Below the pieces are notes generated by a model that was given only the letters and a program-made list of their open reading frames with translations, was not told where the DNA came from and made no database searches. DNA of 64,000 nt from Cyanobacteria bacterium FACHB-DQ100. Lineage in GTDB: Bacteria > Cyanobacteriota > Cyanobacteriia > Leptolyngbyales > Leptolyngbyaceae. Where the stretch lies: assembly GCA_014695195.1 (NCBI GenBank), contig JACJNW010000028.1:930001-994000 (forward strand), written 5' to 3'. The stretch's first letter is position 1. Each line of letters starts with the position of its first letter. Below, piece by piece: positions 2,040-11,842 of this stretch. Position numbers and translations under genes: made by a program.

Positions 2040-3191
2040 TTGCGTCGTTCAATCTTCTTGAATCTAGCTCTCATTGCGCTGCTCATCGGCGCAAGTGGTT
2101 GTGGCGATCGCAATCGCACGGCTGAAAAGTTGGCAACAGACACACAAGGCGCACAGAAGTTTGATAGCAACCTGACGTTTAATAATGTGACGCTAGAGCA
2201 AGCCAACGACAAAGGGCAGCTTTGGTGGCGCGTGAAGGCGAAGCAGGCGGTCTACGCCAAAGATCAGAAGAACGCAACGGTGCAAGAGCCAAAAGGGGAG
2301 CTATTCCAGGATGGTAAGCCCATCTTTAAGCTCGAAGCGCAACGCAGCGAGATTCAGCAAGACGGAAAATCAATTATTCTCAAAGGGCAAATTACTGCCG
2401 TTGATATTCGCGATGGATCGGTTCTCAAAGGTAATGAGATGGAATGGCGACCGACCGAAGATGTATTAATTATTCGCAACGGATTCAACGCAGACCATAA
2501 GCAGATTCAACTGGCAGCTAAAGAAGGTCGGTTCCTGACTCGCGCTCGACGAGTAGACGTAACCGGGCAAATTGTCGCACAGGCGAAAGACCCAACGCTA
2601 CAACTGCGAGGAGAGCGATTAACCTGGCTGATCCAAGCGCAGAAATTAAGCAGCGATCGACCGATTCAAGTCGATCGCTATGAAAACAAGCAGGTGAGCG
2701 ATCGTGGCGGTGCTGACCAAACTGAGGTCGATCTGAAGTCTAAAATTGTCAATCTTCGTCAGAATGCGCGGATTGCCCTACAAAGCTCAAATACGCAAGT
2801 CAGCAGCAATGCCCTGAGTTGGAATGTTGATCAAAAAACGCTGTCTGCGAGCGAACCCGTGACGATCGTGAACTCTGCTCAACAGGTGACGCTGACCGCA
2901 GATCAGGGCGAAATGCTGCTGGATCAGCAAATTGCAAACCTCAGTGGCAACGTGCGGGGCGTTGGGGAAAGGAATCAATCGCGATTGAGCGCCGATCGTG
3001 TGAAGTGGTTCTTGGCGACACAGCAGTTTGAAGCAAACGGCAATGTGAACTATCAGCAGAGCAATCCGCCCTTTAGTATTGCAGGCCCGCAAGCCTCTGG
3101 AAAGCTAGATACTCAACAGGTCGCGGTGAACGGCGGACAGCAAGGGGGACGAGTGGAAATCCAGATTACACCGCGCGGGTTAGGACGGTAA
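2040..3191 (+). CDS. lptC: LptC-like lipoprotein of the LPS transport system
   Basis: Periplasmic, membrane-anchored component of the Lpt bridge that carries lipopolysaccharide from the inner to the outer membrane. The N-terminus reads LRRSIFLNLALIALLIGASGC, a hydrophobic signal ending in a lipobox, so this copy is probably a lipoprotein. The rest is beta-rich with repeated OstA/LptC-type segments (LKGQITAVD, VDVTGQIVAQ, LSGNVRGVG, EANGNVNYQQ). At about 384 residues it is twice the E. coli length, as usual in cyanobacteria. Start chosen as TTG 2040 because GAGG at 2027-2030 sits 9 bases before it; a TTG at 2025 in the same frame lacks such a site. Confidence 0.85.
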   Translation: MRRSIFLNLALIALLIGASGCGDRNRTAEKLATDTQGAQKFDSNLTFNNVTLEQANDKGQLWWRVKAKQAVYAKDQKNATVQEPKGELFQDGKPIFKLEAQRSEIQQDGKSIILKGQITAVDIRDGSVLKGNEMEWRPTEDVLIIRNGFNADHKQIQLAAKEGRFLTRARRVDVTGQIVAQAKDPTLQLRGERLTWLIQAQKLSSDRPIQVDRYENKQVSDRGGADQTEVDLKSKIVNLRQNARIALQSSNTQVSSNALSWNVDQKTLSASEPVTIVNSAQQVTLTADQGEMLLDQQIANLSGNVRGVGERNQSRLSADRVKWFLATQQFEANGNVNYQQSNPPFSIAGPQASGKLDTQQVAVNGGQQGGRVEIQITPRGLGR

Positions 3192-3197
3192 AACCGT
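3185..3197. terminator. Short hairpin between convergent lptC and CTDH genes
   Basis: ACGGT, three A, ACCGT form a small 5-bp stem followed by T-rich sequence (TTTATTTTATT). It lies at the stop of the upstream gene. Weak, but well placed for termination of lptC. Confidence 0.35.
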
Positions 3198-3208
3198 ATC
3201 AGTTTATT

Positions 3209-3604
3209 TTATTGACGCAATTTCATTAGTTCTTGGGGCGAAGCGTTCAGTTTAATCCGCGTGAACATCAATTGATCATTTGAGTCGAGCGTAAAGTACC
3301 AAGTGACATTTACGCCGAACATAGGCATCTGAACTCTTCCCGTAATTTGAAATTCGATCGCATTTTGGTCGGTGGTATGAGACGTTCCAGCTTGCGGCAG
3401 AGCAGTTAATCCAGGGGCTTCTTTTTGCAGGTAAGCCGTGATCGCTTCTCGCCCAATGATCGGTTGCTCAAACGGAGGTTGCATTGCACCTTCGATCGCA
3501 AACAACTGACTGGTCGCCTCAAATTCTCCAGCATTTAGCGTCTCAAAATATCGCAAAATTATTGGGTGTGAAATGCCTTCAATTTCGATCGATTGCGTTT
3601 GCAT
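3209..3604 (-). CDS. OCP C-terminal-domain homologue (CTDH), NTF2-like carotenoid-binding protein
   Basis: 131 residues with the NTF2-like fold of the orange carotenoid protein C-terminal domain: ILRYFETLNAGEFEATSQLFA, then GAMQPPFEQPIIGREAI, ending in VNVTWYFTLDSNDQLMFTRIKL. In the family, a conserved Tyr (here in ILRYF) and Trp (here in VTWYF) hydrogen-bond the ketocarotenoid keto group. CTDHs dimerise around one ketocarotenoid, can hand it to helical carotenoid proteins and quench singlet oxygen. This copy contains no cysteine at all, unlike the CTDH group with a conserved redox Cys. No OCP N-domain or HCP gene is adjacent. The crtO ketolase at 52663 could provide the ligand. Confidence 0.85.
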   Translation of the reverse strand: MQTQSIEIEGISHPIILRYFETLNAGEFEATSQLFAIEGAMQPPFEQPIIGREAITAYLQKEAPGLTALPQAGTSHTTDQNAIEFQITGRVQMPMFGVNVTWYFTLDSNDQLMFTRIKLNASPQELMKLRQ

Positions 3605-3679
3605 GGGTTGATCTCACTCGCTCCGACCAAGCTACTGGATTATTAGAATAGAAGTCCTGCTTCTGCGGATGGAATTTTG

Positions 3680-4585
3680 ATGTCACGAACGGAAGAAATT
3701 AAGCAAAAAGCGATCGAGCTTGGGTTTCACAAAGTCGGCATTGCCTCGGTGGACAATTCGGCTCAAATCAGTGCAGTTCAAGCATTGCAGAAATGGCTTG
3801 ATCGTGGCTTTCAAGCAGACATGGCATGGATGGAAAATCCGAAGCGTCAAAATATTCGGGAATTGGTGCCAGGAGCGCGATCGATCATTGCTGTGGCGCT
3901 GAACTATTACACTCCGCAGCAGCGACCGGAGGGAAAAGAATATGCAAAAATTTCCCGTTATGGTTGGGGACGTGATTACCATCGGATTTTGCATAAGAAA
4001 TTGAAGGCATTTTCGACCTGGCTAGAGCGTGACGGTACACAGGCACGTTATTTTGCAGATACAGCTCCAGTACAAGATAAGTTTTGGGCGCAACAAGCAG
4101 GACTCGGTTGGATCGCGAAAAACGGCAATGTGATCACTCGCGAATATGGTTCTTGGGTGTTTCTCGGTGGCATTGTCATCGATTTAGAGTTAGCGATCGA
4201 TCAACCTTACACGCAGCATTGTGGAACCTGTACCCGCTGCATTGATGCTTGTCCAACGGATGCAATCACAGAACCATTTGTAATCGATGCAAATCGGTGT
4301 ATTGCGTACCATACGATCGAGAATCGTGCCGAAACGCTCCCAGAGATTAATCTCAAGGGTTGGGTGGCAGGATGTGATATTTGTCAGGATGTTTGCCCCT
4401 GGAATCAGCGATTTGCCCAAGAAACCGATGTCCAAGATTTTCAGCCGCGATCGTGGAACGTTGCACCCACCCTGCAAGAACTAGCTGAGATTTCGGAAGA
4501 GGAGTACGATCGACGCTTTACCGGGTCAGCTTTGCGGCGAATTAAAATTGAGATGTTACGACGAAATGCGAGAGCCAATTTTTGA
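3680..4585 (+). CDS. queG: Epoxyqueuosine reductase QueG
   Basis: Cobalamin-dependent iron-sulfur enzyme making the last step of queuosine formation in tRNA anticodons (epoxyqueuosine to queuosine). Two 4Fe-4S motifs are visible: CGTCTRCIDACP (C181, C184, C187, C191) and C207 with CDICQDVCP (C232, C235, C239). The N-terminal catalytic region carries NPKRQNIRELVPGARSIIAVALNYY and RYGWGRDYH. At 301 residues it lacks the C-terminal HEAT-like extension of longer homologues. ATG 3680 is used; an in-frame TTG precedes it by one codon. It faces the thioredoxin-like gene across a terminator. B12 dependence connects it in function with cobD at 24046. Confidence 0.93.
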   Translation: MSRTEEIKQKAIELGFHKVGIASVDNSAQISAVQALQKWLDRGFQADMAWMENPKRQNIRELVPGARSIIAVALNYYTPQQRPEGKEYAKISRYGWGRDYHRILHKKLKAFSTWLERDGTQARYFADTAPVQDKFWAQQAGLGWIAKNGNVITREYGSWVFLGGIVIDLELAIDQPYTQHCGTCTRCIDACPTDAITEPFVIDANRCIAYHTIENRAETLPEINLKGWVAGCDICQDVCPWNQRFAQETDVQDFQPRSWNVAPTLQELAEISEEEYDRRFTGSALRRIKIEMLRRNARANF

Positions 4586-4589
4586 GTGT

Positions 4590-4629
4590 CAGACGGTAGC
4601 ACAAATTAGAGTTTGAAATCTACCGTCTG
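4590..4629. terminator. Bidirectional hairpin between convergent queG and thioredoxin-like gene
   Basis: CAGACGGTAG at 4590-4599 pairs perfectly with CTACCGTCTG at 4620-4629 around a 20-base loop. It occupies the gap between two convergent genes. No long T tract, so efficiency is uncertain. Confidence 0.5.
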
Positions 4630-4644
4630 CGATCGTGTCTCTAC

Positions 4645-4959
4645 TTAGTTCGATTCTGCTAACACTGCTTGCAACCGACTGCGAAACTCACCCTTGGGGT
4701 GTCCGCCTTTCACTTCACCCAGAATTTTGAACTCTTCCTCCGGTGAATCACAAATAATGTAGGTGGGCCACCCCATCTCAGCTTTATCGGGGTACTGAGC
4801 CAGCAAAATCTTGCGGTACTTCCGATAAGTTGCGGTATCTTGCATTTTCACATCTACAAACTGCAAGCCCAACTCCTCAACCACTTTTTGGTCGTAGAAC
4901 GACATCTTGTGACAAATTCCGCAATCTTCCGACGAAAACTTAATTACTGCACGAGCCAT
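4645..4959 (-). CDS. Thioredoxin-family protein with CGIC active site
   Basis: About 104 residues with a thioredoxin-like fold: the N-terminal strand AVIKFSSEDCGICHKM carries the dithiol CGIC, and the cis-proline region is MGWPTYIICDS. A CGIC centre instead of CGPC, an acidic stretch before it and a short C-terminus set it apart from canonical thioredoxin; similar proteins are common in cyanobacteria and their substrates are mostly unknown. ATG 4959 is preferred over an in-frame TTG two codons upstream. It is convergent with queG and divergent from the DUF2854 gene. Confidence 0.8.
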   Translation of the reverse strand: MARAVIKFSSEDCGICHKMSFYDQKVVEELGLQFVDVKMQDTATYRKYRKILLAQYPDKAEMGWPTYIICDSPEEEFKILGEVKGGHPKGEFRSRLQAVLAESN

Positions 4960-5088
4960 ACTCAAATCATTTTTGGAATACCGTTCCAGCGTAAAAGATC
5001 TTGAGGTCGATCGCGCCGATTTCGTAAAACTCCGTTAACTGGAATTCTGCGATAATAGTGTTAATAAATATTGCAGCGAGTCAGTCTT

Positions 5089-5655
5089 ATGTTTCTTCGT
5101 CGAATTCCTCTCGGTGCGTTATGTCTGGGTGGAGGAACCATTATTACGATCGTCGGATTTGCCGCGTATGCGCTAAACTATGCCGCCCTCAACATGATCG
5201 GGTTCTTCTATGGAATTCCTCTACTCTTAGGTGGTGTTGCACTTAAAATCACTGAATTGCGCCCTGTGCCGCTCAGTGTGCCCACAACCCCCGAAGTAGA
5301 AGCCCTGAAAGCGACTCAAGCAACCGCTACCCAAAAACAAGTCTTCGACGATGTAACGCGCTTTCGCTACGGACAAGAAGCCCATCTTGATAGTGCGCTC
5401 AAGTTCTTGGGACTCAGCCCAAGCGATGACGATCGCCCCACCCTCATTGGTCTGCGCGAGGAAAATCGAGACGGCGCTTATGCCATGGTGTTAGAATTCG
5501 ACTCCCCGTTTATCTCGCTTGAAACCTGGCAGAAAAAAGTCGAAAAAATGACCACATTTTTTGGTCCAGGAGTTCGAGTCGAAGTGGCTCAACCTGAAGA
5601 AGAACGAGTCGATCTTGCGATCGTTGCTACCCCCAGCGTCACTGCTGCCGTTTAG
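5089..5655 (+). CDS. DUF2854 family membrane protein
   Basis: About 188 residues. The N-terminus has two hydrophobic segments (ALCLGGGTIITIVGFAAYAL and NMIGFFYGIPLLLGGVAL), followed by a soluble domain with the family stretches DDVTRFRYGQEAHLDSALKFLGL and DRPTLIGLREENRDGAYAMVLEFDS. DUF2854 proteins occur in cyanobacteria and plant plastids; no biochemical role is established. ATG 5089 is chosen over a TTG at 5071 because hydrophobic residues begin soon after it. Convergent with rpmA across a strong hairpin. Confidence 0.75.
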   Translation: MFLRRIPLGALCLGGGTIITIVGFAAYALNYAALNMIGFFYGIPLLLGGVALKITELRPVPLSVPTTPEVEALKATQATATQKQVFDDVTRFRYGQEAHLDSALKFLGLSPSDDDRPTLIGLREENRDGAYAMVLEFDSPFISLETWQKKVEKMTTFFGPGVRVEVAQPEEERVDLAIVATPSVTAAV

Positions 5656-5665
5656 CGACTAAAAA

Positions 5666-5687
5666 AGCCGTCCAAAGTTGGACGGCT
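5666..5687. terminator. Rho-independent terminator of rplU-rpmA (bidirectional)
   Basis: AGCCGTCCA at 5666-5674 pairs with TGGACGGCT at 5679-5687. On the minus strand the stem is followed by six T (the A run at 5661-5666), a textbook terminator for rpmA. On the plus strand it closes the DUF2854 gene. Confidence 0.8.
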
Positions 5688-5707
5688 CTTAATCCTTCGA
5701 GTTCGAC

Positions 5708-5977
5708 TTAAGCCGAAACTTCTGCAACTGAATAAACGCTGACCTTCTGACGATCTTTACCCATGCGCTCGAACTTCACTTCACCTTCGATCAGCGCAAA
5801 CAGCGTGTCATCGCTGCCCCGTCCGACGTTATTTCCAGGATGAAACTTCGTGCCGCGTTGACGCACCAAGATATTTCCTGCCTTCACGACTTGACCGCCG
5901 AACCGCTTTACACCCAAACGCTGAGCATTAGAATCGCGTCCGTTGCGGGTACTACCTGTTCCCTTCTTATGAGCCAT
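5708..5977 (-). CDS. rpmA: 50S ribosomal protein L27
   Basis: 89-residue large-subunit protein whose N-terminus reaches the peptidyl transferase centre. The sequence [29 protein letters not shown] is highly diagnostic, as are [19 protein letters not shown] and DDTLFAL. The start ATG is preceded by GAGGGAATT, a good ribosome binding site. It follows rplU by 35 bases on the same strand in the conserved rplU-rpmA order. Confidence 0.98.
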
Positions 5978-6012
5978 AATTCCCTCTGAAATGGTGTTCT
6001 CGAATCTCTAGA

Positions 6013-6366
6013 TTAACCGTTCGCTTGTTCTTTGGTCGCGATCGCGCTGCCGCCCAAGCTGATTGAATCAATCATAATCCGGGTCAATTCTTGACGATGA
6101 CCACGTTTTTTGCGGGTTTTCTTTTTCGGTTGCATCTTGTAGACGATTACCTTGCGTCCGCGCAGGTGACGCATCACCGTTGCCTGAACGATCGCGCCTT
6201 CTACAACGGGCGCGCCCACGCTGATGTCCCCTTCGTTGTTGACCAGCAAAACGCGATCGATGTCGATCTGCGAGTCTACGTCTCCCACAAGGCGATTCAC
6301 ATCATAAAAGCGACTCGGTTCGACCCGAATTTGCTGCCCTGCGATCTCGATAATTGCGTAAGCCAT
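6013..6366 (-). CDS. rplU: 50S ribosomal protein L21
   Basis: Large-subunit protein that contacts 23S rRNA. Diagnostic stretches are MAYAIIEIAGQQIRVEPSRFYDVNRL, VLLVNNEGDISVGAPVVEGA and YKMQPKKKTRKKRGHRQELTRIMI. An open frame extends to 6441, but ATG 6366 is the family start and has AGGAAAA just before it, so the upstream 75 bases are leader. First gene of a two-gene operon with rpmA, with a candidate promoter at 6462-6491. Confidence 0.97.
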   Translation of the reverse strand: MAYAIIEIAGQQIRVEPSRFYDVNRLVGDVDSQIDIDRVLLVNNEGDISVGAPVVEGAIVQATVMRHLRGRKVIVYKMQPKKKTRKKRGHRQELTRIMIDSISLGGSAIATKEQANG

Positions 6367-6461
6367 GAGTTTTTCCTGAGTAGTCGCCGTACAGGTCGCG
6401 ATCTCTACGAATCGCCGTTGACAAATACCTGATCCGAGCATGAATTGTAAGCCAGTTATCT

Positions 6462-6491
6462 AGTATGCAAAATGTAAAGCGATCGTGTCAA
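6462..6491 (-). promoter_or_regulatory. Candidate sigma-70 promoter for rplU-rpmA
   Basis: Reading the minus strand, TTGACA (6486-6491) is followed after 18 bases by CATACT (6462-6467). The -35 is a perfect match and the -10 is partial. It lies about 95 bases upstream of the rplU start codon. Confidence 0.45.
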
Positions 6492-6549
6492 GTCACATTT
6501 TCTGCGGGTGCAAGATACACTGAAAGTAAGGTGAACATTTGAGATACCT

Positions 6550-7386
6550 ATGGCAGAAATCGTCCGGCAGAGTGAGCTACTGAATCAGACTGTCCTTGAT
6601 CGCGCTTCGATGCAGGAAGTAGGACAGGTAGAGGTACTGTGGATGTACCCGAAAGTGAATCGGGTGTTGGGATTTATCTGCAAATCGGGCTGGCTTGGCA
6701 AGAAAAAAACGGCGTTTAACTTGGATCAGCTAGAAGCGATCGGGAGCGATGGCGTTTTGGTGAATTCGCCGCCTGTCGAAACAGATGTCGAGAAGGTGAA
6801 ACAGCTTGAATCGCTTGTCAATTGCGAAGTGTGGACGGATGCAGGCGATCAAGTGGGTAAGGTTGTCGATTATCTGTTTAATTTAGAAACGGGTGAAATT
6901 GAGCATTACTTATATGTTTCCGATGGTTGGGGAGGCATTGTGGGAAGCGTTTACCTTCTGCCACCGAACTATATTTTGAGATACGGCAGTCGGCGGGTGA
7001 TGGTTCCCAAGGAATCGGTTGAATCGTTTGCGGTGTATCGGGGTGGAGTGCAGGAAAAATTCTCGAAAGTTAAGGATTTGTTTAGTGAGGAGAAGGGTCA
7101 GGTGACGCAAGAAGTGCGATCGCTTGCCGAACTCGCTCGCGAAAAAGCTCGCCGATTAAAGGAAAAGGCGCGATCGTTCACCGAACAAGCCTACGAATTT
7201 GTCGAAGATATTGCGCTTGATGAAACAGAGCCTTATGCTGCTCCGGCTTCTGAGCCTGCACCTTGGGACGATTGGGAAGATGAACCCGCTAAGCCAAAAT
7301 CGCAGGAACTCAAAACGCCTGTCGAGCCGAAACGATCGCCGAAATCCCCAACTGCTGATGCTTGGGATGACGACGACTGGATGTGA
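6550..7386 (+). CDS. PRC-barrel domain protein
   Basis: 278 residues with two PRC-barrel units (about 5-75, with SELLNQTVLDRASMQEVGQVEVLW; and about 85-160, with VNCEVWTDAGDQVGKVVDYLFNLETGEIEHYLY). The C-terminal third is charged and probably helical (LAREKARRLKEKARSFTEQA), then Pro/Asp rich, ending in WDDDDWM. PRC-barrels are RNA- or protein-binding modules (RimM, photosynthetic reaction centre H subunit). Two-domain proteins with acidic tails are common in cyanobacteria and of unknown role. Divergent from rplU with a 180-base shared upstream region. Confidence 0.8.
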   Translation: MAEIVRQSELLNQTVLDRASMQEVGQVEVLWMYPKVNRVLGFICKSGWLGKKKTAFNLDQLEAIGSDGVLVNSPPVETDVEKVKQLESLVNCEVWTDAGDQVGKVVDYLFNLETGEIEHYLYVSDGWGGIVGSVYLLPPNYILRYGSRRVMVPKESVESFAVYRGGVQEKFSKVKDLFSEEKGQVTQEVRSLAELAREKARRLKEKARSFTEQAYEFVEDIALDETEPYAAPASEPAPWDDWEDEPAKPKSQELKTPVEPKRSPKSPTADAWDDDDWM

Positions 7387-7494
7387 AGATTATGAATTCA
7401 AAATAGTATTTCTCCGGATGGCAGGTCTTTCTCTGTCGTAGTGAATTTGAAGTGCTGACATGAGCGACTCAATTTCAAACGATAGAGAAAAACT

Positions 7495-9648
7495 ATGCAA
7501 CGAAAATGGATTACGTTTTTGGGACTGTTGCTGAGTAGTGTATTGCTCATTATCCTGAGTCAGGCGCAGCCCGCCTTGTCGATCGCGCCTCCTGCGGCAA
7601 CAGTGACCAAAATCGCGGCGGACATGGGCAAATTGATCGGACGTAAACCGACGCGCCCGATTCTGATTACAGATAAGAAGTCTGCCCCTTCTATCTTTGC
7701 CCAAAGTATTAAGGATGCGGCGGGACATGGAGCAGTGACGATCGCTGCAACCAAAGAAGGCGGCAAATGGCGGGAACAAGACGAAGGCGAGACGATGGAT
7801 ACCTGCTGGATCGTTTGGCTGTCCTCTTATGCTAACGATGCACAAGATAAATCCCTGCTGGCTCACGAAATCTATCACTGTTTTCAAAACGAGCTGCTTG
7901 GCGTGAACCAGTTACCGGAATGGTTCATCGAAGGATCGGCAATGTGGGCAGGTGAAGAATACGCAGGCGGAACCAAGATGAGCAGTCCGATGTGGAAGGA
8001 CTACTTAAGCGGCGAAAAATCACTTTTTGATCGCGGCTACGATGCGATCGGCTTTTATGCCCACTTGAAAAATAGCGGAGTTGATGTTTGGAAGCGGCTC
8101 GACTCGATTATGAAAACCGCCTCAAACGATTCGGATGGCTTGTTCAATCAGTTCGTCAAATCTGCTGGAGATTCTTTTCTGACAACCTGGGCATCTGGAC
8201 TCGCTCGGAAATCTGAGGCGGGAGCGGATTGGAATACCATAGGGCCGGGAATTACTGCGGATAAACGATCAAGTAAGGCGACCACCGTTTCTTCCAGTTC
8301 GCCACTGTCCCGCGAAATCACACGCGGAACTCAAGCCCTGTACGAGATTAACGTTCCTAGCGGAAAGATCATTCAGTTCGATATCAAAGGATATGGAGCC
8401 TTGCGCTGGACGGGTGGTAGTAGCGACATTCTGAAATTTAGCCAGGTATTTAATAAGCGCTACTGTGTGGGAGAAACCTGTCGCTGTGAAAATGGAAATT
8501 CTCCCTCCGGTGTAGAATCGGCTCCGTCAAATCAAGTTCTGCTAGCGGTGACGGGTACTACACGATCGACCAAGGTTGATGTGACGGCTGAAGACAATTC
8601 TTGTAAAGAGAAGAAGCCCAATAGCGGCAGCGGAAATAGCGGCGGAAGCTCAGGCAACACGGGATCCAACTCGCCGAATAGCGGCAACACAAAAACCGGA
8701 GCAAGCTATGGTGATCCGCATTTGATCACCTTTGATGGGTTCCGCTACAGCTTCCAAACGATCGGCGAATTTCTGCTGAGCCAATCTCAGGATCAGAAGT
8801 TTGTCGTTCAAACGCGGCAAGCTCAAGTGCCGGGGCAAGAATTGACGCTGAACCGTGCGGTTGCCTTGAAGGTCGGCAACGATCGCATTGGATTCTACAC
8901 CGCTAAAGACTCAGCCCCGATCGTGCGCGTCAATGGAGACGTGAGCACCAGCGATCGCCGCTCTTTTGCCGATGGCTCAATGCAGAAACGCGGCGATCGG
9001 GAATATGTAGTGCAGTGGAATAGCGGAGAACAAGCCACAATTCGACTGATTGAAGTTGCAAAAATGACGTTTCTCAATGTCACGCTCAATGTTCCAAATC
9101 GATCGAATCGGTACACTGGATTACTAGGAAACTTAGACGGCAATGCAGCAAACGACTTGCGAACCCGTTCGGGCAAAGTCATTCCAACAAAATCGAGCTA
9201 TGGACAATTCACCAGTGCGCTGAGTAATCTGTTACCCACGCCTATTCCTTTGTCAAGTATCGAAACGGCGTTTCTCGATCAGCTTCATCGTGAGTTTGGT
9301 GATAGTTGGCGGATTCAGCAAAGCGAGTCGCTGTTCGATTATGAAGCGGGACAATCGACGGAAACGTTTAGCGATCGGCGTTTTCCCCGCCGCTATCTGA
9401 CATTAGGCTCATTGATGCCTGCTCAACTGCGATCGGCAGAAGCCGTTTGCCGCAATGCGGGAGTCGAAGCGAATTTGCTAGAAGGCTGCATTTTTGATGT
9501 GGGACTGACGAATCAGCCTGGATTTGCTCAAGCCGCAGCAAATGCGTTAGTACAAGGAGTGATTGATCGGGCGGTCGATCGCGTCATCGATCAAGTCCAA
9601 GAAAAAATTCCGGTGAAGCTTCCAGTGCGGATTCGCTTCCCTTGGTAA
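7495..9648 (+). CDS. Secreted gluzincin-like metallopeptidase fused to a von Willebrand factor type D domain
   Basis: 717 residues. Residues 1-30 form a signal peptide. A peptidase-MA-like region follows with HEIYH at 124-128 and EWFIEGSAMW with E146, matching the HExxH plus downstream EGxA zinc site of gluzincins. Next comes a region with a small Cys-rich segment (RYCVGETCRCENG), then a Gly/Ser/Asn linker (about 365-400). A VWD domain begins at SYGDPHLITFDGFRYSF (about 404) and includes YTGLLGNLDGNAANDL. The C-terminal 150 residues have no recognised motif. Likely exported, cutting or binding an extracellular partner; the substrate is unknown. Ends in a perfect hairpin shared with the convergent gene. 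Confidence 0.82.
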   Translation: MQRKWITFLGLLLSSVLLIILSQAQPALSIAPPAATVTKIAADMGKLIGRKPTRPILITDKKSAPSIFAQSIKDAAGHGAVTIAATKEGGKWREQDEGETMDTCWIVWLSSYANDAQDKSLLAHEIYHCFQNELLGVNQLPEWFIEGSAMWAGEEYAGGTKMSSPMWKDYLSGEKSLFDRGYDAIGFYAHLKNSGVDVWKRLDSIMKTASNDSDGLFNQFVKSAGDSFLTTWASGLARKSEAGADWNTIGPGITADKRSSKATTVSSSSPLSREITRGTQALYEINVPSGKIIQFDIKGYGALRWTGGSSDILKFSQVFNKRYCVGETCRCENGNSPSGVESAPSNQVLLAVTGTTRSTKVDVTAEDNSCKEKKPNSGSGNSGGSSGNTGSNSPNSGNTKTGASYGDPHLITFDGFRYSFQTIGEFLLSQSQDQKFVVQTRQAQVPGQELTLNRAVALKVGNDRIGFYTAKDSAPIVRVNGDVSTSDRRSFADGSMQKRGDREYVVQWNSGEQATIRLIEVAKMTFLNVTLNVPNRSNRYTGLLGNLDGNAANDLRTRSGKVIPTKSSYGQFTSALSNLLPTPIPLSSIETAFLDQLHREFGDSWRIQQSESLFDYEAGQSTETFSDRRFPRRYLTLGSLMPAQLRSAEAVCRNAGVEANLLEGCIFDVGLTNQPGFAQAAANALVQGVIDRAVDRVIDQVQEKIPVKLPVRIRFPW

Positions 9649-9695
9649 AGAAAACCGTGCACTCGACAAGACCGATTGAGTGCACGGTTTTCTTT
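9647..9695. terminator. Perfect 18-bp bidirectional terminator hairpin
   Basis: The stem at 9647-9664 (beginning AAAGAAAACCGTG) pairs without mismatch with 9678-9695 around a 13-base loop. The A and T runs at the outer ends make it an intrinsic terminator in both directions. Both stems overlap the stop codons of the convergent genes. Confidence 0.85.
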
Positions 9696-10362
9696 AAATT
9701 GCGTCAATATTAACGGTTTCGATCGCGGGTGTCGTCTTCGCAACGGTTGATCGCTGACGAGACACTAACTCTGTTCCAGTGCGCTGTTTATTAGCGCGAT
9801 ACTTTTCTGTGATTTTTTGACCCGTCAAGAAATTGCTGCTTTCGCGAGTTTCGGCTCCGGCCAGGCGATCGAACTGTCGCACATCTTGACCAATCAGCAC
9901 CAGACGTTTCGACGCTTTATCAATCCAGAAGCGGTGCAAAGTCTGTGTTCCATCGCGAGAGCCGCGTAGCTGATCGACTAAAAGCACACCGTTCTCAATT
10001 TTGATCTGAATCGATTCCAACATGCCGCCGCAGTTTGAACACAGCAATAGACGTGGAGCCATGCCGATACGCTGCCATTGACCGTTCGGCTGTCGCTGCA
10101 AAACGAGCAGCATCCGGGCACGATCGCCTCCCGAATTTGCCGTTTGAATCAATCTCAAAACCGTATCCGCTCTGCGATCGCCATTGAGGTCGCCCTCAAC
10201 TTTGCCTTCAATTTGCCATCCTTTCGGCACTAGGGCTTGGATACTGGTTCCGTTTGAGGGAAACCCGACCGGATTAATTTGCTTAGAAGATTGAGCAATT
10301 GCAGGCGCAACCGGAGCGATCACAAACATCGCCAATACTAGAGTCGAAATTGCACGTTTCAT
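9694..10362 (-). CDS. Secreted hypothetical protein with one VCBS/FG-GAP-like motif
   Basis: 222 residues with a clear signal peptide (MKRAISTLVLAMFVIAPVAPAIAQ). The mature part contains GDLNGDRRADTVLRL, resembling the calcium-binding DxNxDxxxD loop of FG-GAP/VCBS repeats, followed by VLQRQPNGQWQRIG and a CSNCGG pair of cysteines. Only one such repeat is visible, so no beta-propeller can be claimed. Probably periplasmic; function unknown. Confidence 0.7.
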   Translation of the reverse strand: MKRAISTLVLAMFVIAPVAPAIAQSSKQINPVGFPSNGTSIQALVPKGWQIEGKVEGDLNGDRRADTVLRLIQTANSGGDRARMLLVLQRQPNGQWQRIGMAPRLLLCSNCGGMLESIQIKIENGVLLVDQLRGSRDGTQTLHRFWIDKASKRLVLIGQDVRQFDRLAGAETRESSNFLTGQKITEKYRANKQRTGTELVSRQRSTVAKTTPAIETVNIDAI

Positions 10363-10381
10363 ACAGGAATGATTGAACTAC

Positions 10382-10411
10382 CGGGCTTCAGTAGTATAAG
10401 CTTCAAGCCCG
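10382..10411. terminator. Possible hairpin between two minus-strand genes
   Basis: CGGGCTT (10382-10388) and AAGCCCG (10405-10411) can pair around a 16-base loop, between the flavin reductase stop and the next start. No T tract, so this is tentative. Confidence 0.25.
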
Positions 10412-10479
10412 ATAATTCTTACTGCGGAAATTACGAGTTTGAAAGCTCGAATCAACCGTCGCTCGATCGAGCGATTAAC

Positions 10480-10959
10480 TTAACCGCCGTACTGCCAACC
10501 TGTGCTTTCGAGCAGGAGCGGTTCACCTTCGCGATGCACTCCAGCCGCGATCACTTCACCCACAAACACCGTATGATCCCCATGATCCACGGTTCCGACG
10601 ACTCGGCATTCCACATAGCCAAGCGCCTCGGAGATAATTGGGCATCCGGTTTCGCCTAAGTAGAACTCTACATCCTCGAATTTGTTACCGACTCGACGCT
10701 GCGGCTTAAAAAATTTCTGCGCGAGGTCTTTCTGTCCAGCTTCTAGAAAGCTCAGTGCAAATACGCCACTGTTGCGAAGCATTTGGTTGGAGCCAGAGTC
10801 GCTTTTAACGCAGTTCACGACGATCGGTGGCTTAAACGATCCCTGCATCACCCAACTTGCAGTAAAGCCGTTTACATTTTCTCCATCTTTGACACCGCAG
10901 ATATACAACCCATGCGGAATCTTCAGCAACATTGCTTTTTTTGCCTGTTCGTCGAGCAT
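10480..10959 (-). CDS. Flavin reductase family (FMN-binding) protein
   Basis: 159 residues with the split-barrel flavin reductase-like domain: ALLKIPHGLYICGVKDGENVNGFTASWVMQGSF at the N-terminus, PPIVVNCVKSDSGSNQMLRNSGVFALSFL, and GDHTVFVGEVIAAGV near the C-terminus (the conserved GDH..F.G.V motif). Members bind FMN and reduce flavins with NAD(P)H, or are the reductase module of cyanobacterial diflavin proteins; this one is stand-alone. It lies downstream of psbY on the same strand with a hairpin between them. Confidence 0.85.
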   Translation of the reverse strand: MLDEQAKKAMLLKIPHGLYICGVKDGENVNGFTASWVMQGSFKPPIVVNCVKSDSGSNQMLRNSGVFALSFLEAGQKDLAQKFFKPQRRVGNKFEDVEFYLGETGCPIISEALGYVECRVVGTVDHGDHTVFVGEVIAAGVHREGEPLLLESTGWQYGG

Positions 10960-11025
10960 TGCAGGTTTCCTTAAATTTGTACCGATTAACTTCTCAAGAT
11001 TAACAAGCGCGATCGCAAAACAAAA

Positions 11026-11053
11026 CCGACTTCTCTACGGTGAGAAAAGTCGG
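11026..11053 (-). terminator. Intrinsic terminator of psbY
   Basis: On the minus strand a stem of CCGAC...GTCGG extended by CTC/GAG (with a two-base bulge) is followed by TTTTGTTTTG. It lies 28 bases after the psbY stop and before the flavin reductase gene. Confidence 0.6.
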
Positions 11054-11080
11054 CTCAAGCGTGAAGGCTTAATTTAGCGG

Positions 11081-11200
11081 TTACTTTGCCAAGAAGCCCT
11101 TCACTTGCTGTAATGCGTAAGGAAGAATTCGAGAAACAGCCCAACCCCCTGCCAGAATGATCGGAAATAACACGATTAGGACGCGAAAATCAAAATCCAT
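11081..11200 (-). CDS. psbY: Photosystem II protein Y
   Basis: A 39-residue single-span thylakoid protein, read directly from the minus strand: MDFDFRVLIVLFPIILAGGWAV, then SRILPYALQQVKGFLAK. The D.R..IVL.P..LAGGWAV pattern and size are those of PsbY, a small subunit bound at the periphery of photosystem II near cytochrome b559. ATG at 11200, TAA at 11081. It is followed by its own terminator, so it is probably transcribed alone or as a short leader transcript. Confidence rests on the motif and length, not a search. Confidence 0.85.
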   Translation of the reverse strand: MDFDFRVLIVLFPIILAGGWAVSRILPYALQQVKGFLAK

Positions 11201-11240
11201 ACCCGCTCTCTCGCTTAATCAGACGTTTCAATAATTTAAA

Positions 11241-11268
11241 TTTGTACCGTATTTCGTGTAGCTTTCAA
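11241..11268 (-). promoter_or_regulatory. Candidate promoter for psbY
   Basis: On the minus strand TTGAAA (11263-11268) and TACAAA (11241-11246) are separated by 16 bases, about 40 bases before the psbY ATG. Both hexamers are imperfect. Confidence 0.3.
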
Positions 11269-11287
11269 AGCAGTTTTCTCAGAGGGT

Positions 11288-11842
11288 TCACATTTGTACA
11301 CGAAAACCGAGATCCGTTCCTTTGTTCGCGTGAACGAGTGCTAATTTCTCGTAATGTTGAGCGTGTTCGATCAGGTGTTCGACTTCTGAATCTAAAAGTT
11401 CACGAATCGGCTTGCCCGGAACGCCAACGACTAACGATCGTGGTGGTACATCCTTAGTCACAACTGATCCCGCTCCAATGATGCTGCCTGCTCCCACTCG
11501 TACCCCATCAAGGACGATCGCCCCGATACCAATCAAACAGCCCCGCTCGATATGAGCGCTATGAATCACGGCTCGATGTCCCACCGTGACAAATTCTTCG
11601 AGGATCGTCGGATGACCCGGATCACCGTGAAGAATTGCCCCATCTTGAATATTCGTGCTGGCTCCAAGGCAGATTCTTTCTACATCGGCGCGGACGACTG
11701 CGTTATACCAAATGCTGGCTCCAGCAGCGATTTCGACATTGCCAATTACCGTAGCATTAGGCGCAACGAAGGCAGCGATCGTCAAATCAGGAGGATTCCA
11801 ATAAGACGGAGAAAAAAGAATTGGGACTTCAGAAGGATTCAC
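11288..11842 (-). CDS. Gamma-carbonic-anhydrase-like hexapeptide-repeat protein
   Basis: About 184 residues of left-handed beta-helix: FVAPNATVIGNVEIAAGASIWYNAVVRADVERICLGASTNIQDGAILHGDPGHPTILEEFVTVGHRAVIHSAHIERGCLIGIGAIVLDG. Three His in the usual gamma-CA positions are present (ILHGD, VGHRAVIHSAHI), so a metal site is likely. Family members are carbonic anhydrases or carnitine/acyl-CoA related hexapeptide proteins; it lacks the RbcS-like repeats of CcmM. The open frame extends to 12100, but the extra N-terminus overlaps the divergent gene and reads as non-conserved; GTG 11842 is the best start found. Carbonic anhydrase activity is inferred only. Confidence 0.85.
   Translation of the reverse strand: MNPSEVPILFSPSYWNPPDLTIAAFVAPNATVIGNVEIAAGASIWYNAVVRADVERICLGASTNIQDGAILHGDPGHPTILEEFVTVGHRAVIHSAHIERGCLIGIGAIVLDGVRVGAGSIIGAGSVVTKDVPPRSLVVGVPGKPIRELLDSEVEHLIEHAQHYEKLALVHANKGTDLGFRVQM

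Follow-up and report, generated by a model that had tools for sequence, protein, structure and literature searches.

We analysed a stretch of 64,000 nucleotides (the window) from Cyanobacteria bacterium FACHB-DQ100 (contig JACJNW010000028.1, positions 930,001 to 994,000), in which an open reading frame (ORF) at 7495-9648 on the forward strand codes for a protein of 717 residues, with an ATG start and zero internal stops, that joins a predicted exported metallopeptidase to a von Willebrand type D (VWD) domain. Such a fusion of an exported gluzincin-like peptidase and a VWD domain in one gene had been proposed in an earlier sequence-only reading, and is now supported by the intact ORF, a VWD profile match, conservation in A1 (an alignment of the N-terminal peptidase unit in three rows, also used as a profile) and homology to a Thermomicrobium protein. 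Beyond that reading, we found a GDPH motif of the self-cleavage type, a C8/RGM_C-like segment followed by a tail, exchange of the N-terminal part among relatives, and an occurrence of the peptidase unit without VWD in Thermomicrobium. The domain order is nearly certain; the parts are listed below with window coordinates, strand and residue numbers of the 717-residue protein.

7495..7587, +, predicted signal peptide, residues 1 to ~31 (MQRKW, a hydrophobic run, then QPALSIA), read by eye
7588..8244, +, gluzincin-like (clan MA type) metallopeptidase domain, residues ~32-250, with HExxH and a further E
7864..7878, +, HEIYH zinc-binding motif, residues 124-128; H, E and H are the same in 3/3 A1 rows
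7930..7932, +, E146, candidate third zinc ligand, in WFIEGSAMW; invariant in 3/3 A1 rows
8245..8610, +, four-Cys beta segment (Cys 324, 329, 331 and 370), residues ~251-372; "beta" from sequence reading
8611..8700, +, Gly/Ser/Asn linker, residues ~373-402, from the sequence
8701..9177, +, VWD domain (Pfam PF00094), residues ~403-561, no Cys
8710..8721, +, GDPH motif, residues 406-409, predicted Asp407-Pro408 self-cleavage site; the homologous bond is cut in FCGBP (human IgG Fc binding protein)
8755..8757, +, Q421, by spacing the counterpart of FCGBP Q4094, the cleavage-assisting Gln
9178..9564, +, C8/RGM_C-like segment with Cys652 and Cys665, residues ~562-690
9565..9645, +, C-terminal tail, ending IPVKLPVRIRFPW

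Cys residues lie at positions 104, 129, 324, 329, 331, 370, 652 and 665, and the last letters of the protein are RFPW.

The peptidase unit

The N-terminal half displays the ligand pattern of gluzincins, HExxH with a downstream Glu, as H124, E125, H128 and E146, where it had been noticed before, and the pattern is kept in A1. Family matches below the respective cut-offs are BSP of Pfam (20.0 bits against 23.8; E 6.3e-4 with the isolated domain), which we take to belong to clan MA, and, with the whole protein, the NCBIfam families flagellinolysin (3.5e-5) and MXAN_6640_HExxH (0.0055). All three A1 rows match the MXAN_6640 family of putative metalloproteases (NF045524) over the HExxH region, at best with 2.4e-7, but with 18.4 bits for its N-terminal unit, and 17.7 bits when the genome was searched, the window protein stays far under the cut-off of 140. 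Profile A1 has no match among PDB sequences up to E=10.

Firmer kinship comes from a plasmid-borne protein of Thermomicrobium roseum (WP_012642829.1), the sole match among 72,556 plasmid records in a tblastn search at E<=1 (3e-11). Residues 113-370 of the window protein align in one piece with its residues 273-541 (25% identity, 1e-20 in the pairwise comparison), and the alignment keeps HExxH, the Glu of W..EG.A, the YDAIG.YA motif and five Cys, among them all four of the beta segment (324, 329, 331, 370); a sixth, C104, is also aligned in A1, within a gapped stretch. In the Thermomicrobium protein the peptidase and four-Cys segment precede a lipocalin-like segment (0.0087, below cut-off), unlike the window protein, and no VWD is found up to E=10; because the unit stands there without a VWD match, peptidase and four-Cys segment travel as one unit, independently of VWD. 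Judged by these sequence relationships, the peptidase half belongs to a real family despite the missed cut-offs. The one-piece homology and the ratios of nonsynonymous to synonymous substitution (dN/dS, see below) rule out a chance HExxH. The putative enzyme is predicted to be exported, to bind zinc and to be catalytic.

The VWD domain and its GDPH motif

Residues 405-561 match PF00094 over profile positions 4-156 of 156 (58.6 bits, cut-off 22.9, E=1.2e-15), a profile search that confirms the VWD domain suspected from the sequence. No second VWD match at E<=0.001 occurs in the rest of the genome, and the same search of 14 control genomes returned none. Proteins with this domain and the two segments behind it as a C-terminal module, which we term carriers, were found at 19 loci, namely the window, 17 further loci and a Nostoc plasmid (locus L087); profile A3 was made from 17 of the 19, leaving out L067, which is near-identical to the window, and L069, which is broken within the module. 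The best relative of solved structure in the PDB is FCGBP, with 7e-17 and, with profile A3, 4.1e-59.

In FCGBP, according to PMC10880436, the Asp-Pro bond of GDPH hydrolyses unaided, changes of the D or H stop or inhibit cleavage, and changes of Q4094 act in part; cleavage stabilises the domain, its purpose is given as unknown, and without the disulfide it could fragment the protein. The window protein has all of G406, D407, P408 and H409, with Q421 at equivalent spacing. Moreover, in three PDB chains of FCGBP (8r0t_B, 8r0t_C and 8qci_B) the sequence begins at profile position 11, the A3 column that holds the Pro of DPH. The FCGBP-type disulfide that tethers strand 1 has no counterpart, there being no Cys in residues 371-651: the few Cys expected in this domain turn out to be none between residues 370 and 652. 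As the VWD has no Cys, cleavage would leave no disulfide tether.

We counted the motif in one alignment of 46 cyanobacterial VWDs, comprising 18 carriers and 28 others. DPH is present in 18/18 carriers versus 21/28 others (Fisher p 0.032), GDPH in 16/18 versus 16/28 (p 0.027), DPH with the Gln in 16/18 versus 13/28 (p 0.005), the p values being weak because they are uncorrected for kinship; the full set of GDPH and Gln is found in 14/18 carriers versus 10/28 others. Among further VWDs, from 10 of 15 plasmid records and one viral contig, GDPH occurs in 6/11, and the remainder have GDVH (3), GEPH (1) and GDPN (1), so that GDPH is no requirement of the fold and some bacterial VWDs cannot be of this kind. 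In the stretch checked, 36 of 45 other VWD domains are without Cys. Another GDPH VWD module lies towards the C-terminal third of a protein of 3107 residues (L043 in genome G014, 2051-11371, reverse strand), in which hemolysin-type Ca repeats, Calx-beta-like segments and RHS/YD repeats can be made out by eye.

Behind the VWD domain, RGM_C (PF06534) matches the window protein with 22.2 bits (8.2e-5), below the cut-off of 27, and reaches or exceeds the cut-off in 4 of 10 relatives scanned; in the PDB, profile A3 matches RGMB with 0.014. No TIL, C8 or E domain is matched in Pfam up to E=10, and the D assembly (VWD-C8-TIL-E) is thus incomplete. Invariant in A3 are D, P and H of the motif, both Cys of the C8-like segment (17/17 rows) and one Pro near the end. 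The C-terminus is complete in 18 carriers: Pro-Phe or Pro-Trp closes 14 of these sequences, and a CLPxxGC-type tail (CLPxxGC plus one residue) closes the other four; judged from sequence, this conserved end might serve as a signal for sorting or anchoring.

Two animal families offer the closest plan for this half of the protein. Like the VWD-C8 units of FCGBP, it pairs a VWD bearing GDPH and the helper Gln with a C8-type segment behind it; unlike them, it is without Cys or strand-1 disulfide in the VWD, has no TIL/E match and has a peptidase in front. The RGM proteins, which are held by a glycosylphosphatidylinositol anchor, likewise have a GDPH VWD followed by an RGM_C-type segment, whereas the window protein remains below the RGM_C cut-off, has another N-terminal domain and a different conserved tail. 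The disulfide-linked extracellular network that the sequence-only reading had considered for such domains is not supported here: with a Cys-free VWD and no TIL or E domain in Pfam, we reject a disulfide-linked mucin-like network.

One module with varied N-termini and patchy presence

The relatives have a common C-terminal module and different N-terminal domains, and we therefore posit, from sequence comparison, that the VWD module is an interchangeable carrier in cyanobacteria, displaying gluzincin, JAMM-like, VWA7_N/Het-C, unassigned or nearly absent N-termini. In a scan of 10 relatives, the N-termini of L042 and L071 match VWA7_N/Het-C (2e-21 and 7.5e-24), and that of L034 matches Prok-JAB weakly (0.0088, below cut-off) and contains an HTHP...S..D motif that we take to be a JAMM peptidase motif. 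Those of L036, L037, L040, L041 and L070 gave no convincing domain match in the scan, and those of L072 and L038 are short. By blastp, the N-terminus of L087 matches that of L071 (3.7e-64), the gluzincin and JAMM-like N-termini have no match to other groups at E<=1e-3, and cross-group matches among the remaining N-termini all fall inside the first 130 residues. The other cyanobacterial carriers (L034, L036, L037, L040, L042, L071, L087 and more) thus resemble the window protein in the C-terminal module and tail, and differ in N-termini that have no detectable similarity to the gluzincin and, where assigned, are other domains.

A tree built from 21 modules joins the gluzincin and JAMM-like carriers as sister groups (support 100/98) although their N-termini are unrelated; support for the VWA7 group is weak (57/22). 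The nine N-terminal labels need 8 changes on this tree, which is the minimum, so that each clade keeps the N-terminus it has and the tree gives no evidence of frequent recent exchange. The carrier in Nostoc sp. UHCC 0302 (L087, 2807-4999) lies on a 37-kb mobilizable plasmid, adjoining an IS630 transposase and with a tyrosine recombinase near, and the family can accordingly sit on mobile DNA. Decayed copies also occur: L069 (genome G388, 3104-4084, reverse strand) has a stop inside the module after FGDSWRIS, with one TAG within the genome-search match, and a fragment at G074:C35:8138-8308, matching only residues 655-714 and with one internal stop, is a possible remnant of a carrier gene.

The combination of peptidase and VWD is rare, being found in 1/386 genomes of the phylum sample and in 3/8 genomes of the genus. 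With the whole protein as query, 38 of the 386 cyanobacterial genomes match; in the 37 other than its own, matches start at residue 347 or later, with one exception from 276 (G026), and all cover the VWD except short ones of the C-terminal segment. The N-terminal half alone, and likewise profile A1, matches only its own genome among the 386. Across the order, which here equals the family with the same 42 genomes, the peptidase unit is strong in 3/42 (its own, G403 and G405), with eight weak matches in seven further genomes (E 0.02-0.85), and the module occurs in 9/42. Among genome contigs, 36 pattern matches yielded one relative, in Cyanobacteria bacterium FACHB-63, 92% identical. Viral contigs gave 28 pattern matches with A1, none confirmed, and 12 with A3, one of which was confirmed as a partial VWD at a contig end. 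At 5001-5270 of an IMG/VR contig (L099), the start of a GDPH VWD stands at the contig end after a long, very G+C-rich repetitive stretch, and this could be bacterial DNA within a viral collection.

Against two congeners, dN/dS by region ranges from 0.029 to 0.242, which points to purifying selection throughout, with the C8-like segment plus tail, taken as one region, the most constrained (0.029 and 0.038). The linker has the gene's highest value against L068 (0.242) and not the highest against L067 (0.101); values against L068 are rough because dS to it is mostly above 1. With the gene intact in three species and under purifying selection, a pseudogene or assembly artefact is ruled out.

All eight genomes of the genus contain a close match (80-100%) to the PRC-barrel gene that lies upstream. 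A gene for a protein of 222 residues (9694-10362, reverse strand), probably exported and without a Pfam match, stands next to the PRC-barrel gene in congeners that have the peptidase gene and in others that lack it: in G404, G406 and G408 the PRC match ends 40-75 bases from the match to the 222-residue gene, leaving no room for a peptidase gene, while in G402 and G407 no marker gene other than PRC was found in the stretch of flank taken. From the conserved flanks and three empty sites it follows that this is an accessory gene at a fixed site. A toxin-immunity pair with the 222-residue neighbour is ruled out, as the neighbour stays in the three empty-site congeners.

Release, localisation or delivery

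We tentatively propose that the window protein is an exported modular hydrolase on a portable, probably self-cleaving VWD carrier, from which the peptidase may be shed, and put this partly inferred scheme at slightly under an even chance. The N-terminal unit would be a gluzincin-type zinc peptidase with its Cys-bearing beta segment, borne on a flexible linker by the C-terminal module of VWD, C8/RGM_C-like segment and tail. After export, the VWD would fold and cut its own chain at Asp407-Pro408, as the FCGBP and RGM VWDs do, after which only non-covalent contacts would keep the first strand and the peptidase unit in place; with no Cys in the VWD to hold it otherwise, the peptidase might come free, and the carrier module would stay at the cell envelope or matrix. 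Location, release and a substrate for the enzyme all belong to the predicted part of this scheme. Self-cleavage is favoured because the residues critical in FCGBP (D, H, Q) are all present, and we consider it about as probable as its absence; the subsequent release of the peptidase we place on the less probable side. A wider version, in which cyanobacteria have a system of self-releasing passengers, with a mostly Cys-free module of GDPH VWD, C8-like segment and Pro-aromatic tail shedding an exchangeable N-terminal hydrolase, and with mucin-type or RGM chemistry used for release instead of stabilisation, seems rather unlikely.

Several points weigh against cleavage and shedding. The precedent for cleavage is from animal VWDs and would be transferred by analogy to a bacterial one, and even there PMC10880436 reports the GDPH of MUC2 as uncut in one expression system. 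Four of the 18 carriers are without the full set, two with His for the Gln and two without the Gly; GDPH is also present in large non-carrier proteins (16/28), and its conservation may reflect stability. One Cys lies in or just before the VWD in 7 of the 19 carriers, and L072 and L073 have a Cys pair that might tether strand 1, so that the missing tether is not general to the family; the first strand might also stay bound without a disulfide. On the side of the enzyme, the gluzincin half reaches no Pfam or NCBIfam family cut-off, and the geometry of H124, H128 and E146 is not readable from AlphaFold models with a low predicted local distance difference test (29.8 for the full protein and 36.6 for the peptidase domain, with two input sequences each).

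Alternatively, as the sequence-only reading had it, the protein could be an uncut surface or secreted peptidase, kept in place by a VWD that simply attaches to a surface, a glycan or the matrix. Varied N-termini on one module fit a binding module equally well, animal VWDs are extracellular and associated with adhesion, from which an adhesive role for this one may be drawn by analogy, and PMC12419801 suggests adhesion for bacterial vWD; the near-constant motif (DPH in 18/18 and GDPH with Gln in 14/18 carriers) and the lack of a tethering Cys in the window protein speak against it, and we regard it as unlikely. Less probable by some way is a conflict effector, that is, a family akin to polymorphic toxins in which the VWD would deliver toxic N-terminal hydrolases (gluzincin, JAMM-like, Het-C type) against competitors or predators. 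Unrelated enzyme-like N-terminal domains on one carrier, the patchy presence with empty sites, the Nostoc plasmid carrier beside an IS630 transposase and the one VWD in an RHS-type protein (L043) are all consistent with it. In classical polymorphic toxins, however, it is the C-terminus that varies, as described in PMC3482391 (VWD was not found in the searched part of its main text, for which the text index counts one "von Willebrand"); here the variation is N-terminal, the pairing of a variable C-terminus with an immunity gene is absent, and the neighbour at 9694-10362, being kept at the three empty sites, is no specific immunity partner. Most doubtful is proteolytic self-processing, in which the gluzincin would cut its own linker to free itself or mature the C-terminal module: the long Gly/Ser/Asn linker suits it and such release is proposed for the myxobacterial proteins in PMC12419801, but it leaves unexplained the GDPH and Gln in four carriers with short N-termini (L038, L039, L072 and L073).

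Returning to the proposed self-cleaving carrier, the nearest described bacterial proteins are the myxobacterial zincin-prokSAA-vWD-Ig proteins of PMC12419801 (eLife 2025), likened here by their description in that paper, which calls this vWD the first bacterial example and suggests both adhesion and proteolytic release for proteins with it. They too unite an N-terminal zincin and a C-terminal vWD in one secreted bacterial protein, and additionally have a prok-SAA lipocone and Ig domains. The earlier statement that no protein of this architecture had been described therefore gives way to that precedent and holds for the form without prok-SAA, which is absent from the literature searched (titles and abstract openings), as are a cyanobacterial VWD peptidase and a cyanobacterial carrier family with varied N-termini on a GDPH VWD. 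Bacterial VWD domains as such are not new in databases, and labels reading "VWD domain-containing protein" exist in plasmid records.

The combination of zincin and VWD is now found outside the one published bacterial case that we located, the myxobacterial one (PMC12419801), and the carriers tie the modules of animal mucins, FCGBP and RGM to bacterial VWD proteins. In the window protein, self-cleavage may free the enzyme from its VWD anchor. A Cys-free bacterial VWD whose motif stands right at the junction of an exchangeable enzyme and the conserved C-terminal module is a simple system, open to genetics, for asking whether the cut means release.

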